Both the position numbers and the translations under genes were made by a program. A stretch of 54,498 nt of DNA from Chloroflexota bacterium. GTDB lineage: Bacteria > Chloroflexota > Anaerolineae > Aggregatilineales > J027. Positions 37,556 to 43,632 of this stretch are shown here, in pieces (positions within the stretch are counted from its first letter, which is position 1; the number at the start of each line of letters is the position of its first letter). Location: NCBI GenBank assembly GCA_010092845.1, contig JAADYW010000125.1:1-54498 (forward strand), given 5' to 3'. The notes under the pieces were generated by a model, which had not been told where the DNA came from, did not search any database, and saw only the letters and a program-made list of their open reading frames with translations.

Positions 37556-38128
37556 ATGAACAGGGAACACTCAATACCAATTGATCCAGATCGACAACTG
37601 GTGCAGGCAATGTCCCAGGGTGATGCTCGTGCCCTGGATGAGCTATATGCCCGCCACGGACCGGGCGTGTTGAGCTTTCTGGTTTCTCGGTTAAGCGACC
37701 GCCAACTGGCGGAAGAGGTATTACAAGACGTTATGTTAGCAGCATGGAAAAACGCAGATGGATTTCGCGGCGAAAGCAGCGTGCGGACGTGGCTTCTAGT
37801 CATCGCACGCAATCGGGCCATCAACGCCCGGCGGCGCTATGCGCCAACGCTGGTTTCTGTGGACACCGTCTTCAACCTGCAGAGTACGGATACTGGCCCC
37901 TTTGAAGCTGTGGCCCGCGAGTTCGATAAGGCGGCTGTGCGCGACGCTATCGGCTATCTTGAGCCAGACCAGCGGGAGATACTGACGCTGTTCTTCTATC
38001 ACCAGCTATCGGGTCCGGAGATCGCTGAGGTACTAGAGATCAATCCTGGAACGGTGAAGAGTCGTCTCCACCGGGCCAAAGAGGCGCTTCGGCGGACGAT
38101 GATGCTACGGGAGGGGACCGATGCATGA
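37556..38128 (+). CDS. ECF-type RNA polymerase sigma factor
   Basis: 190-aa sigma-70-family factor of the extracytoplasmic-function type. Region 2 spans LYARHGPGVLSFLVSRLSDR ... FRGESSVRTWLLVIARNRAI (residues about 30-95); region 4 is a helix-turn-helix, YLEPDQREILTLFFYHQLSG ... INPGTVKSRLHRAKEALR (residues about 130-180). GGGGGA precedes the ATG. The anti-sigma gene overlaps it by 8 bases, the usual arrangement for a coupled sigma/anti-sigma pair. Which promoters it reads is not visible. Confidence 0.92.
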   Translation: MNREHSIPIDPDRQLVQAMSQGDARALDELYARHGPGVLSFLVSRLSDRQLAEEVLQDVMLAAWKNADGFRGESSVRTWLLVIARNRAINARRRYAPTLVSVDTVFNLQSTDTGPFEAVAREFDKAAVRDAIGYLEPDQREILTLFFYHQLSGPEIAEVLEINPGTVKSRLHRAKEALRRTMMLREGTDA

Positions 38129-39977
38129 GGAATTACTGGAGCTCATTCCGCTGTACGTTGCCGGCAAGCTGCCCCCCGAACAAGCAGCGAAGCTTGAGCA
38201 TCATCTCGCACGGTCCCCAGAACTGCATACCGCACTAGAAGAATGGCAAACGATTGCCGAGGCGGTTCGACAGCAAAGTGAGGAATGGGCCCGCCGTCTC
38301 CCGCCTCTGGCCCCTTATATCCGCGCTGAGGTCGAAAAGCGCTTCAATGGCCAGGGCGCCGAGCCAACCATGATTACTGCGCTCAACCAACCCACACGCC
38401 TCGGTCCTCGTTCCGCAACGCAACAGAGCCGCCTACCTCTCTCGCTGGCCGCGGCACTTATTGCGGTCACCGTTTTCGCCAGCTTGATCGTTTTCCTTAG
38501 CAGTCGAGAAGATTCTGACGGTGGCCAAAACGGGGATACAGCCGGTCTGGCCGCGCAAGAAGGTAGCCCCGAAACTGCCATCGCCCAGGATTCCAGCCCA
38601 ACACTAACATTTACCCCCTTTGTTGCCACTGAAATCGCAGCCCGGCCCACCGCTACCCCTAATGACATCCACTCCCCAGTTGCTGGCGTTGGGAATGCAA
38701 CATCCACAGCCACACCCGCATTCCAGGAGGCCGGTAGTGGCAGTGCTAGCGCTGCTAGTTCGCCCGGCCTGCCCCCCAATCTCCAGCCAACAAGGACGTT
38801 GAGCCAGGATGACTGCTTCGTCACAAACCCACAAGAGACACCTGTCGCTATTTATCGATGGCCTGGCCGCGAAAACGAGGTTACCGGGACTCTGCAACCT
38901 GGCGAGCAACGCCGGATTCTCGTGACGAGCGGAACCGGCTGGTACGAGGTCTATGCGCCTGAGGGTGGCATTCAAGGTTGGGTATTCATTGAAGATGTTC
39001 GATTGGGTGGCAATTGCGATAACCTGTGGCTGCCATCCCCTACCCCCGATGTACCCACGACAAGCCCCACAACCTGTAGAGTCAGCGTAATCACGGGCGA
39101 CACGATAACGATCCGTTCAGGCCCCGGGATGGATTATGCCGAGATCGGAAGCTACGGCGGGCAGATGGTTGCCCGTTCACGTAGTGCTAACGGCTGGTAT
39201 GAGGTTGCCTTTGCGCCACAGTCGCAAACGTTGACCGGCTGGGTACCCGAGACCTGGATCAGCGCGAATACCCATTGCGCTACCCTGCCGGTGATTTCCC
39301 CCGCGGACTATACACCGCAACCGACACCAACCCGTTTCCCAACCGCGGCCGCCGTTCCTCAAATAGCCTATTTCACAGCAGTCCCCTCAGACATCCAGCC
39401 TGGCGATACGGTGACCGTAAGCTGGGAAACACGCCATGCTTCGCGTGTCTGGCTGGAGTACTTCGGCACGCAAGCCTCTGGTAATGCAGGTACTGAAGCC
39501 GCCCCCATGCCGCTAGCGGTCTTCAGCGACTTGCCACTGACCGGAAGTATGGATATCCGTATCCCCGCAACTTTCCGGGATGATGCCATCACCTTCTCCC
39601 TGGTTATCAATACCTATGGCGATGGCGAGCGCGGACCTTCGATGAACCGGGTCGTTCGCATCGACTACCCTCAGAGCCAGGAGCAAACCCCATCATTGCC
39701 TACTATCATCAGCTTCGAGGTGACCCCGGCACAGACCGCACCGGGCGAGACGCTGACAGCAACCTGGGAAACCCAGGACGCACGGCGCGTTCACTTGTCT
39801 CTGCTAGGGGAGACTGGCAGCGGTCAACCGGAACGGCGCGAGGTTGCCGGACGTGGCCAATCGACGTATGTCGCACCGGCGGGCTACACGGGGAAACTGT
39901 ATTTTCGTCTTGAGGCTGAAGGAGAAGATGGGTTGAGTGTCTCACGTACGGTTATGATTGAAAGTGGGAACCCGTAG
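38121..39977 (+). CDS. Transmembrane anti-sigma factor with zinc-less N-domain and SH3b/Ig-like sensor
   Basis: 618 aa. Residues 1-75 match the anti-sigma fold (LLELIPLYVAGKLPPEQAAK, LEHHLARSPELHTAL), but the two cysteines of the usual HxxxCxxC zinc site are Ser and Leu. One helix follows (LPLSLAAALIAVTVFASLIVFL). Outside the membrane come a Thr/Pro/Ser-rich linker, two SH3b domains each bounded by cysteines (CFVTNPQETP...GGNC and CRVSVITGDTITIRSGPGMD...NTHC), and two Ig-like domains (VPSDIQPGDTVTVSWETRHA and VTPAQTAPGETLTATWETQD) that are related to each other. GAGGGGA precedes ATG 38121. SH3b domains often bind cell-wall peptides, so envelope sensing is likely. Confidence 0.82.
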   Translation: MHEELLELIPLYVAGKLPPEQAAKLEHHLARSPELHTALEEWQTIAEAVRQQSEEWARRLPPLAPYIRAEVEKRFNGQGAEPTMITALNQPTRLGPRSATQQSRLPLSLAAALIAVTVFASLIVFLSSREDSDGGQNGDTAGLAAQEGSPETAIAQDSSPTLTFTPFVATEIAARPTATPNDIHSPVAGVGNATSTATPAFQEAGSGSASAASSPGLPPNLQPTRTLSQDDCFVTNPQETPVAIYRWPGRENEVTGTLQPGEQRRILVTSGTGWYEVYAPEGGIQGWVFIEDVRLGGNCDNLWLPSPTPDVPTTSPTTCRVSVITGDTITIRSGPGMDYAEIGSYGGQMVARSRSANGWYEVAFAPQSQTLTGWVPETWISANTHCATLPVISPADYTPQPTPTRFPTAAAVPQIAYFTAVPSDIQPGDTVTVSWETRHASRVWLEYFGTQASGNAGTEAAPMPLAVFSDLPLTGSMDIRIPATFRDDAITFSLVINTYGDGERGPSMNRVVRIDYPQSQEQTPSLPTIISFEVTPAQTAPGETLTATWETQDARRVHLSLLGETGSGQPERREVAGRGQSTYVAPAGYTGKLYFRLEAEGEDGLSVSRTVMIESGNP

Positions 39978-40536: not shown

Positions 40537-41268
40537 ATGACAAGGAACGCAGTAAAAGCCGATGCGCAAATGGCGAACACGGCGCTACATAGCACATCGC
40601 CAGTCATGCTCTGGATATCATCGAATGGCGAGTCACCGCCAACAGATGTTCGCAAGGCGCTCGATGCGGCGGCCAACGACTATAGTGCCCTTGAGGTGCT
40701 CATCATTGATACAGCGGCCGAACCAGCGTTCAAAGAGCGCTTCAGTGTGGGTAAGCACGCTGTGCTGATCGGATGGTACAACAATGAGGTTATCTCACGG
40801 CGTCAGCGCCCTTGGGCCACTGATGTCCAGGGCACGGCCGAAAAATTAGCTGGTCTCATACCGGAACCCGAGCAAGACCCGAATGGAAAAGATAAGACCG
40901 AAGAAAATAAGGAGCTACCTGTGGATAACGTACCTGTACATGTGACCGATGCTGATTTCGAGAAAGAAGTAATCAACCACGAACTCCCCGTCCTGGTGGA
41001 CTTCTGGGCCGATTGGTGTGGCCCGTGTAAGATGGTCGCGCCGACACTGGAGAAACTGGCTGGCGAGTACGCGGGCAAGGTTCGTATTGCCAAGGTCGAT
41101 GTCGATGCCAACCCGGGCCTGGCCCAGGCTTTCCGGATCATGAGCATTCCGACGTTGATGTTCTTCAAGGAGGGCAAGATCGTGGGGCAGACCGCCGGCG
41201 CCCTGCCCGAGCCGACACTCCGTGATGCCCTGGAGCAGCTTGTCGCGCTGGAAATCCCGGCTGAGTAA
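40537..41268 (+). CDS. Double thioredoxin-fold protein: inactive N-domain plus active thioredoxin
   Basis: 243 aa. The C-terminal domain (residues about 130-240) is a full thioredoxin with the redox motif in FWADWCGPCKMVAP and the cis-proline in MSIPTLMFFKEG; it reduces protein disulphides in the cytoplasm. The N-terminal domain (residues about 10-108) looks like a thioredoxin-like fold without CxxC (VMLWISSNGE, LEVLIIDTAAEPAFKERFSV). They are joined by an acidic, lysine-rich linker. A second start may exist: AAGGAG at 40909-40914, six bases before an in-frame GTG at 40921, would give a free 115-aa thioredoxin of normal length. A strong terminator follows. Confidence 0.88.
   Translation: MTRNAVKADAQMANTALHSTSPVMLWISSNGESPPTDVRKALDAAANDYSALEVLIIDTAAEPAFKERFSVGKHAVLIGWYNNEVISRRQRPWATDVQGTAEKLAGLIPEPEQDPNGKDKTEENKELPVDNVPVHVTDADFEKEVINHELPVLVDFWADWCGPCKMVAPTLEKLAGEYAGKVRIAKVDVDANPGLAQAFRIMSIPTLMFFKEGKIVGQTAGALPEPTLRDALEQLVALEIPAE
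40909..40923 (+). promoter_or_regulatory. Possible internal ribosome site and GTG start for free thioredoxin
   Basis: AAGGAG-CTACCT-GTG is in frame with the fusion (128 codons from its ATG) and exactly at the domain border. AAG GAG also encodes Lys-Glu of the linker, so it could be chance. Confidence 0.45.
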
Positions 41269-41412: not shown

Positions 41413-43632
41413 ATGGCATCGCTCAAACCGAACCTCTTATCCGACGACCTCAAGACCATCATGGTTGAAGCCACGGACGTGGCCAAGCACTATATGCGGC
41501 GTAATCTCTATCCGGAAGTTGTCTTGTGGGTCATGATTCAGCACCAGAATACGGCAGCCTACCGTTTGCTCCGGCAGTTTGTGGAGCGACGCGGCGCCGA
41601 TCTCGAACATCTCCAACAACAGGTCCGGCTCGCAGCGATGGGTCCGCGCCACGACAAAAACGGTGATCTGGACTTCCTGCTCCCTGATGGCACCAAGTTC
41701 CCCATCAGCCATCATCTGCTGATCGCCCTGGATGATGCGTTAACAATTGCGCAATCGCATGGCGAGGTTCACATCGACACCGATCATCTACTGGTCAGCA
41801 TGACCGACCGGCGAGTCAGCACCGGTTTGATCTTGCAGCAGCACGGCATTACCGCTGGCGCGGCAAACGATCTCCTGGACGACCGCACACAAATCCGCCG
41901 CCGCAAAAACGCCACCCTGATGGACCATGTCGAGGCGGCCCGAAGCGGCGAGCTGCCTAAAATCCACGAACGCAAGACCCTGTTGCGCGACATGATTAAC
42001 ATCCTCTCACAGTCCATCAACCGGCATATCATTCTGGTGGGGCCAGATGGCGTGGGCAAGCGCAGTCTCGGCTATGCGCTGGCGCATCTGATTACCCGAG
42101 AAAAAGGTCCGCTTGGTATTGGGAAATTCATCCAGATCGATGAGCGAGCACTGCTGGATAACCCCGTCGAAGCCATGCAAAGCGCGATAATGCGCGCCCG
42201 GGGCGGGATCCTGTTTGTGCCGCACCTGCATCGCTTCTTCGGCGGGCCGGTCAAAGCCGAGTTTCCGAAATCCGGCCAGAACTTGCAAAAGGCCTTTCTG
42301 AGTTACGATCCGGTGATTGTCGCGACCACAACATTGCCTGAATGGGAGGAACGTGTTTCACGCGTGACGGCGATCAGCGAACACGCCCAGGTTTTACGAG
42401 TTGACGAACCCTCCGAAGAGGAGACGCTAGAAATCTTGCGTGTACTCCAACCCCAACTCGCAGCTGACTACGATATTGATATCGACGATAACGCCTTGAC
42501 CGCGGCCGTGCGGATGGCCAAGCGGTATATTGGCACCATGCCGCTGCCGCGTAGCGCCGCGCATCTGTTGCACCGGGCCGGCGCGATGGTCAGCATGAAC
42601 CAGCAGGCACAACTGGCCTTCAAACCAGATCTCCCTGATAACGTGCTCGATAGTGAGGATATCACGTTGGCAGTTGCCCAGATGACTGGTATCCCAGTCA
42701 GCAATCTGGACCACGATGAACGGACCAAGTATGCCAGTATGGTCGAACATTTGCACCAGCGCATCATTGGCCAGGATGAAGCAGTTCTGGCGGTTAGCCG
42801 TGCTGTCAAGACGGCACGCGTCGGGCTGAAAGACCCCCGCCGGCCCATCGGGTCCTTCCTGTTCCTGGGCCCGAGCGGCGGCGGCAAGACCGAATTGGCC
42901 AAATCCCTGGCCGAGTTTCTATTCGGTAGCGAAGACGCGATGCTACAGATTGATATGTCGGAATATATGGAAGAGAACACCGTGAGCCGACTCGTCGGGG
43001 CGCCGCCTGGCTACGTTGGTTACGAAGGGGGCGGGCAACTCACCGACCGGGTACGAGACCAACCCTATATTGTGGTCCTGTTTGATGAGGTCGAGAAAGC
43101 CCACTCCCGCATCGTCGATATTCTGCTCCAGGTACTCGAAGAAGGCCGCCTGACCGATGCCCAGGGCAACGTTGCCACCTTCAGCGAGGCCGTGGTCATC
43201 ATGACCAGCAACCTGGGCGCCGAGTATCTGAGTACAACGGTCATCACTGATGAGATTCGCGAGCAGGTTCTGGGTGAAGTGAAAGGGCATTTCCGGCCAG
43301 AGTTCCTCAATCGTCTAGATGATATCATCATCTTCCATCCACTAAGCGAGAATCACCTGTATGATATCCTTGGCCTAATGCTAGCCCGCGAACAACAGCT
43401 TGGCGCCGAGCGCGGACTGAGTATCAGCTTCACACAGGCCGCCCAACAATGGATGATCAGACAGAATGAAACTCCTGAATATGGTGCACGGCCCTTGCGA
43501 CGGATCATCCAACGTAACGTCCGCGAACCCCTGGCCGACTTCCTGCTAAACGGCACCCTGCCTGAAGACGGCACTATCCACATTGATGCACATGATGAGG
43601 GCCTTGTATTTGAAACCAATTCTGAGGGCTGA
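41413..43632 (+). CDS. ClpB/ClpC-like AAA+ ATPase with degenerate first AAA domain
   Basis: 739 aa. Residues 1-155 hold two Clp-N-like repeats (LYPEVVLWVMIQHQNTAAYR; HIDTDHLLVSMTDRRV). D1 (about 170-400) is inactive by motif: Walker A GPDGVGKRS lacks the Thr/Ser after Lys, Walker B reads ILFVPHLHRFFG where DE is expected, and the KYRG pore loop is absent. D2 (about 440-735) is intact: GPSGGGKTE, pore loop PPGYVGYEGGG, Walker B VVLFDEVEKAH, sensor MTSNLG, Arg finger FRPEFLNRLD and sensor-2 GARPLRR. There is no IGF-type ClpP loop and no long ClpB middle coiled coil. It is probably a one-ring-active unfoldase or disaggregase. Promoter not evident. Confidence 0.87.
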   Translation: MASLKPNLLSDDLKTIMVEATDVAKHYMRRNLYPEVVLWVMIQHQNTAAYRLLRQFVERRGADLEHLQQQVRLAAMGPRHDKNGDLDFLLPDGTKFPISHHLLIALDDALTIAQSHGEVHIDTDHLLVSMTDRRVSTGLILQQHGITAGAANDLLDDRTQIRRRKNATLMDHVEAARSGELPKIHERKTLLRDMINILSQSINRHIILVGPDGVGKRSLGYALAHLITREKGPLGIGKFIQIDERALLDNPVEAMQSAIMRARGGILFVPHLHRFFGGPVKAEFPKSGQNLQKAFLSYDPVIVATTTLPEWEERVSRVTAISEHAQVLRVDEPSEEETLEILRVLQPQLAADYDIDIDDNALTAAVRMAKRYIGTMPLPRSAAHLLHRAGAMVSMNQQAQLAFKPDLPDNVLDSEDITLAVAQMTGIPVSNLDHDERTKYASMVEHLHQRIIGQDEAVLAVSRAVKTARVGLKDPRRPIGSFLFLGPSGGGKTELAKSLAEFLFGSEDAMLQIDMSEYMEENTVSRLVGAPPGYVGYEGGGQLTDRVRDQPYIVVLFDEVEKAHSRIVDILLQVLEEGRLTDAQGNVATFSEAVVIMTSNLGAEYLSTTVITDEIREQVLGEVKGHFRPEFLNRLDDIIIFHPLSENHLYDILGLMLAREQQLGAERGLSISFTQAAQQWMIRQNETPEYGARPLRRIIQRNVREPLADFLLNGTLPEDGTIHIDAHDEGLVFETNSEG

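Follow-up and report, generated by a model that had tools for sequence, protein, structure and literature searches.

In double-ring Hsp100 proteins, whether the first ring serves as engine, grip or scaffold is an active question that has been approached mostly with engineered mutants so far. ClpB carries a coiled-coil M-domain of ~120 aa, ClpV and ClpL are class I Hsp100s that are independent of ClpP, and ClpV, ClpL and ClpK all have an active first AAA domain (D1) together with an M-domain. When the Mg-binding Thr, Walker B and the Arg fingers are lost, AAA+ hydrolysis should be abolished. In ClpB threading is driven mainly by the second AAA domain (AAA2), in ClpA the first (AAA1) improves grip, and ClpG has both an active D1 and an M-domain (PMC8129007). 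A different division of labour is found in Pex1/Pex6 of the yeast and human peroxisome, in which the D1 ring is ATPase-dead and devoid of aromatic pore loops and the threading is done by D2 (PMC10518020; PMC9265785).

The gene described here lies in a window of 54,498 nucleotides, the whole stretch of DNA that was analysed (contig JAADYW010000125.1 of a Chloroflexota bacterium, class Anaerolineae), and encodes a 739-aa Clp protein that shares traits with several of these systems. With ClpB/Hsp104 it has in common a Clp_N domain, two AAA domains and the absence of a ClpP loop, and its D2 is ~50% identical to that of the ClpB of its own genome, but it has no M-domain, its D1 is inactive and its D2 falls into a separate clade. 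ClpA/ClpC also have two AAA domains, and ClpA likewise has no M-domain and is of similar length, whereas the inactive-D1 family has a dead D1 and no IGF/LGF loop in 72/72 members. ClpV, ClpL and ClpK/ClpG resemble it as class I Hsp100s working without ClpP and differ by their active D1 and M-domain. The atypical Clp proteins SMXL/D53 of plants are likewise Hsp100-derived and have no ClpP motif, but they are eukaryotic transcriptional regulators with an M-domain and an altered D2, unlike the present protein (PMC9133912). With Pex1/Pex6 the likeness, here read from sequence only, is a D1 that has neither catalytic motifs nor an aromatic pore loop, above a D2 whose threading motifs are intact; Pex1/Pex6 belongs to another AAA+ clade, forms a heterohexamer and has other N-domains, and the shared trait is analogous, not homologous.

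The gene and its product

The gene is an uninterrupted open reading frame with the following domains.

41413..43632, plus strand: Hsp100/Clp ATPase gene with inactive D1, 739 aa (uninterrupted ORF; Pfam matches)
41413..41892, plus strand: Clp_N-type N-domain, residues 1-160, a helical double repeat with a short beta hairpin (Clp_N in orthologues; structural model)
41923..42633, plus strand: inactive D1 AAA domain, residues 171-407 (ClpB/ClpC D1 homology, phmmer domain 1; lid PF17871)
42715..43617, plus strand: intact D2 AAA domain and small domain, residues 435-735 (catalytic motifs; D2 tree)

Pfam recognises AAA_2 (E 3.5e-62), ClpB_D2-small (1.3e-19) and AAA_lid_9 (1.1e-13), and also Clp_N at a marginal E of 4.3e-4, just over the Pfam cut-off. 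Within the family, AAA_2 and ClpB_D2-small form the tandem AAA+ arrangement with a Clp D2-small domain in 56/56 members, and Clp_N is found in 37/56 (E up to 0.001). Tandem AAA+ domains and Clp_N are both present, as in the broad class I of Hsp100/Clp proteins, and catalytic motifs are not present in both AAA domains. The sequence relatives in the PDB are ClpB and ClpC, with E values of ~1e-100 for D2 and ~1e-16 for D1. Equivalog models place the protein outside the named families, with 529.4 bits against a cut-off of 1232.1 for ClpB, 429.8 bits against 993.15 for ClpA, and scores far below cut-off for ClpV, ClpK and ClpG. The protein is named by no curated family. The AlphaFold2 model (56-sequence alignment) has a mean pLDDT of 90.3, with a confidently folded D1 and an N-domain mostly above 90, and a monomer pTM of 0.51, by which the relative placement of the domains is uncertain; the PDB chains ranked highest for it by Foldseek are ClpC, ClpB and Hsp104. 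Scans for promoters and terminators around the gene gave results at chance level.

Loss of catalytic parts in D1

The motifs were counted in 72 orthologues from many families of Anaerolineae, aligned with active paralogues. Four D1 sites are altered as follows.

42040..42066, plus strand: Walker A of D1, altered to GPDGVGKRS, residues 210-218, with Arg217 in place of Thr (Arg 71/72, Gln 1/72)
42142..42162, plus strand: deletion site of D1 pore loop 1, ERALLDN, residues 244-250 (9-residue gap relative to active Clps, 72/72)
42208..42237, plus strand: Walker B of D1, altered to ILFVPHLHRF, residues 266-275 (in place of Asp: Pro in 65, Ala in 5, Ser and Arg in 1 each of 72)
42370..42390, plus strand: AISEHAQ, residues 320-326, where D1 has lost its Arg-finger pair (RR in 0/72)

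Neither Thr nor Ser ever stands at position 217 (R 71, Q 1), the Asp-Glu of Walker B is replaced by P270-H271, and ERALLDN aligns with MASLVAGAKYRGEFEE of ClpB/ClpC/ClpA, from which 9 residues have been deleted. The initial annotation, which had read GKRS in Walker A, PH for DE in Walker B and no pore loop, is borne out at each of these coordinates, and all 72 orthologues share the losses. Two further losses were not on its list: the Arg-finger pair RR has become E323-H324, with at least one Arg left in 11/72 orthologues, and the adenine-site VIGR has become KIHER. Sequencing error, chance and a lineage artefact are excluded by D1 losses common to 72 orthologues, and a search for orthologues with an intact D1 in close relatives, the finding that would have spoken against the annotation, returned none.

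When 20 active Hsp100s, E. coli ClpA and ClpB included, are taken as the reference, 12 of their 63 invariant positions are kept in D1 of the present protein and 53 of 58 in D2. At L190, R217, F276, Y353, A369 and R388, on the other hand, the D1 of the family holds near-invariant residues where the active proteins hold another, and the dead D1 thus has a conserved chemistry of its own.

The P-loop is the part of the site that has changed least uniformly: the Walker A Lys is Lys in 59/72 and Arg in 13/72, and GxxGxGK is retained in 59/72, by which some nucleotide binding by D1 is possible. A D1 locked on its ligand, in which ATP or ADP is bound tightly as a structural element and never hydrolysed, would be a variant compatible with the explanation preferred below, and it has a precedent in the D1 of Pex6, which still binds ATP with degenerate motifs (PMC10518020). 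The retained GxxGxGK favours this variant; the Arg at the Mg-coordinating Thr, the Lys to Arg change in 13/72 and the replacement of the adenine-site Ile-Gly, mostly by Tyr/His and Phe/Tyr, make it rather unlikely. Elsewhere in the genome, a frame that matches the HolB (delta-prime) model and not the DnaX-like one (G000:C38:41482-42039) has the P-loop GPAATGKKT, in which Lys stands where Walker A has its Thr. Delta-prime, a subunit of the clamp loader, does not hydrolyse ATP, and the Arg-for-Thr exchange in D1 therefore fits a non-hydrolysing AAA+ site.

D2 and the missing ClpP loop and M-domain

The second AAA domain had been called intact, and in the 72 orthologues its catalytic residues are complete.

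42868..42891, plus strand: D2 Walker A GPSGGGKT, residues 486-493 (K 72/72, T/S 72/72)
42997..43026, plus strand: D2 pore loop GAPPGYVGYE, residues 529-538 (Tyr534 72/72)
43072..43092, plus strand: D2 Walker B VVLFDEV, residues 554-560 (D and E 72/72)
43204..43293, plus strand: loopless segment at the site of the ClpA/ClpC ClpP-binding loop, residues 598-627 (no [LIVM]G[FL] in 72/72)

The motifs MTSN, FRPEFLNR and GARPLRR are also intact, and the Lys, Asp, Glu, pore Tyr, sensor-1 Asn, Arg finger and sensor-2 Arg of D2 are found in every orthologue (72/72). The ClpP-binding motif [LIVM]G[FL] (IGF/LGF), by contrast, is absent from every one of the 72 members, and the D1-D2 linker is ~40 aa with no M-domain, also when aligned with the ClpB of the same genome; both absences had been noted in the initial annotation and both hold. 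Loops of the LGF/IGF type are present in the ClpC-like and ClpA-like proteins of the genome. A partnership of the inactive-D1 Clp with ClpP was rejected, since the ClpP loop is missing. Two orthologues (L124:4221-6722 and L125:2411-4906) carry an insertion of ~100 aa exactly at the site of the ClpA/ClpC ClpP loop, and one of them matches Effector-associated domain 7, though weakly and below threshold (E 0.046).

Distribution, selection and ancestry

A full-length orthologue with 48-70% identity is found in most of the nearest 41 genomes, while the other Clps of those genomes match the protein well in D2 only. A profile of the N-domain and D1 found the family in 140/154 genomes of the order, and in 87/90 of those of good quality, nearly all of them with a single match; of the 14 genomes without it, 9 are in one family. 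The gene is a single-copy, near-core gene of its order. More widely, the family is present in 134/396 sampled genomes of the class Anaerolineae, and in a phylum sample of 301 genomes the matches were confined to that class. The named relatives are Chloroflexota/Anaerolineae metagenome-assembled genomes, and a contig pattern scan with patterns from close relatives returned Chloroflexota only. Plasmid-borne relatives were sought and rejected, the best plasmid matches to the N-domain and D1 being ordinary ClpB at 25-27% identity. One orthologue, from a low-completeness genome (G004:C122:3870-5547), lies in two frames with a break at residue 396/397, a frameshift or an assembly error.

In close orthologue pairs, dN/dS of D1 is mostly 0.01-0.12, close to the D2 values; a ratio so low and so similar to that of D2 indicates that D1 is not decaying. 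Over long distances D1 diverges faster, with a mean identity of 48% vs 65% for D2, a point in favour of a decaying ordinary ClpB/ClpC gene or of a misassembly, but a frame that is open class-wide, a single origin and strong purifying selection on D1 render either extremely improbable. In a tree of D2 alone, which leaves out the altered D1 and is unrooted and made by a quick method with no bootstrap, 27 family members form one clade (SH-aLRT 100) beside the ClpB/ClpC groups, and no known Clp group is singled out as closest. Judged from these sequences, the inactive-D1 Clps form an Hsp100/Clp family of their own in Anaerolineae, passed on by vertical inheritance. The family appears undescribed within the literature searched, in which no description was found in work on degenerate or inactive AAA/Clp domains or on Clps of Chloroflexi/Anaerolineae, most subscription journals lying outside its coverage.

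Genomic context

The genome also holds a ClpB, two ClpC-type proteins, of which one is truncated where its contig ends, a ClpA-like protein, ClpX and ClpP, the ClpX being called from a single ClpB_D2-small match in a 438-aa frame beside clpP. The search for clpB and clpC elsewhere in the genome, proposed in the initial annotation, thus found ClpB and ClpC-type genes. With a normal clpB and other Clps in the same genome, scores far below the ClpA, ClpB and ClpV cut-offs and a D2 clade of its own, its view that the protein is neither an ordinary ClpC nor an ordinary ClpB is well supported. A second odd Clp in the taxonomic family of this genome, of 1172 aa (G000:C241:25471-27168), keeps its D1 Walker A, has ILYV[TS]DLPG at Walker B, has no GYVG pore motif in D2 and carries a long C-terminal extension; a close relative is found in 8/10 genomes of that family, the present one included.

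The coexistence of active ClpB, ClpC-type and ClpA-like proteins might point to a regulatory subunit of mixed rings, in which heterohexamers would form with an active Clp of the ClpB or ClpC type and the dead D1 would tune the ring of its partner, as in the alternating Pex1/Pex6, itself a heterohexamer whose D1 ring is dead (PMC10518020). Such a subunit, however, would not need the complete D2 (pore loop, Arg finger, sensor 2) that is found, the gene is unlinked to the active Clp genes, and the conserved D1 positions differ strongly from those of active Clps; a mixed ring is accordingly quite improbable.

No neighbour of the Clp gene recurs in more than about 12/65 loci, and in the lack of a conserved operon the neighbourhood points to no client. 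An operon with the upstream two-domain thioredoxin (40537-41268) was considered and rejected, the two genes being neighbours in the window and in one congener (L043) but in none of the other sampled loci; the thioredoxin has an additional N-terminal region whose fold was not recognised. Further upstream, at 37556-39977, lie an ECF sigma factor and, after it, a protein resembling anti-sigma factors (zf-HC2, SH3_3).

Proposed mechanism

From this anatomy, conservation and ancestry we infer assembly, ATP use, threading and the handling of clients. The protein is probably a ClpP-independent, D2-driven threading remodeller in which a nucleotide-inert D1 would serve as scaffold, by analogy with Pex1/Pex6. 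The expected loss of hydrolysis and grip in D1, the role of AAA2 as motor in ClpB and the precedent of Pex1/Pex6 together favour this reading. In the hexamer that the protein would form, D1 would be a hydrolysis-dead collar, acting as scaffold and gate, which keeps the ring assembled and hands substrate onward. Clients would be selected by the N-domain, pulled by the GYVG loops of D2 on ATP hydrolysed by D2 alone, and released, not degraded by ClpP, and control by Hsp70 through an M-domain would be absent. As loss of pore loop 1 removes the grip of D1, a weaker grip is expected, and partial unfolding or disassembly of complexes is then likelier than deep processive unfolding. A Pex1/Pex6-like way of working would have been reached independently, from an Hsp100 ancestor.

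On balance, the interpretation given in the initial annotation is partly supported. That the protein is powered only by D2 agrees with the loss of nearly all D1 catalytic elements and the retention of D2 in 72 orthologues, and on the side of energetics it is a prediction; that D1 is kept as a scaffold fits its confident fold and the purifying selection on it, the role in assembly being likewise predicted. A fuller proposal, held tentatively and at slightly less than an even chance, is that this bacterial Hsp100 family, previously undescribed, present almost throughout its order and found widely in Anaerolineae, may be a Pex1/Pex6-convergent, single-motor double-ring remodeller for a dedicated, conserved client, with a D1 rebuilt (Arg217, Pro270, Arg274-Phe275-Phe276, Tyr353, Arg388) as a conserved interface.

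Significance

The family is a natural, class-wide version of Hsp100 with an inactive D1 that has no pore loop, and it offers a natural experiment on the contribution of D1, as well as on the ease with which a Pex1/Pex6 design evolves. Since the inactive D1 has been kept across a whole class, it must have retained some function. Sludge and the subsurface harbour abundant Anaerolineae, and the family points to a conserved proteostasis task in this class that has so far gone unrecognised.
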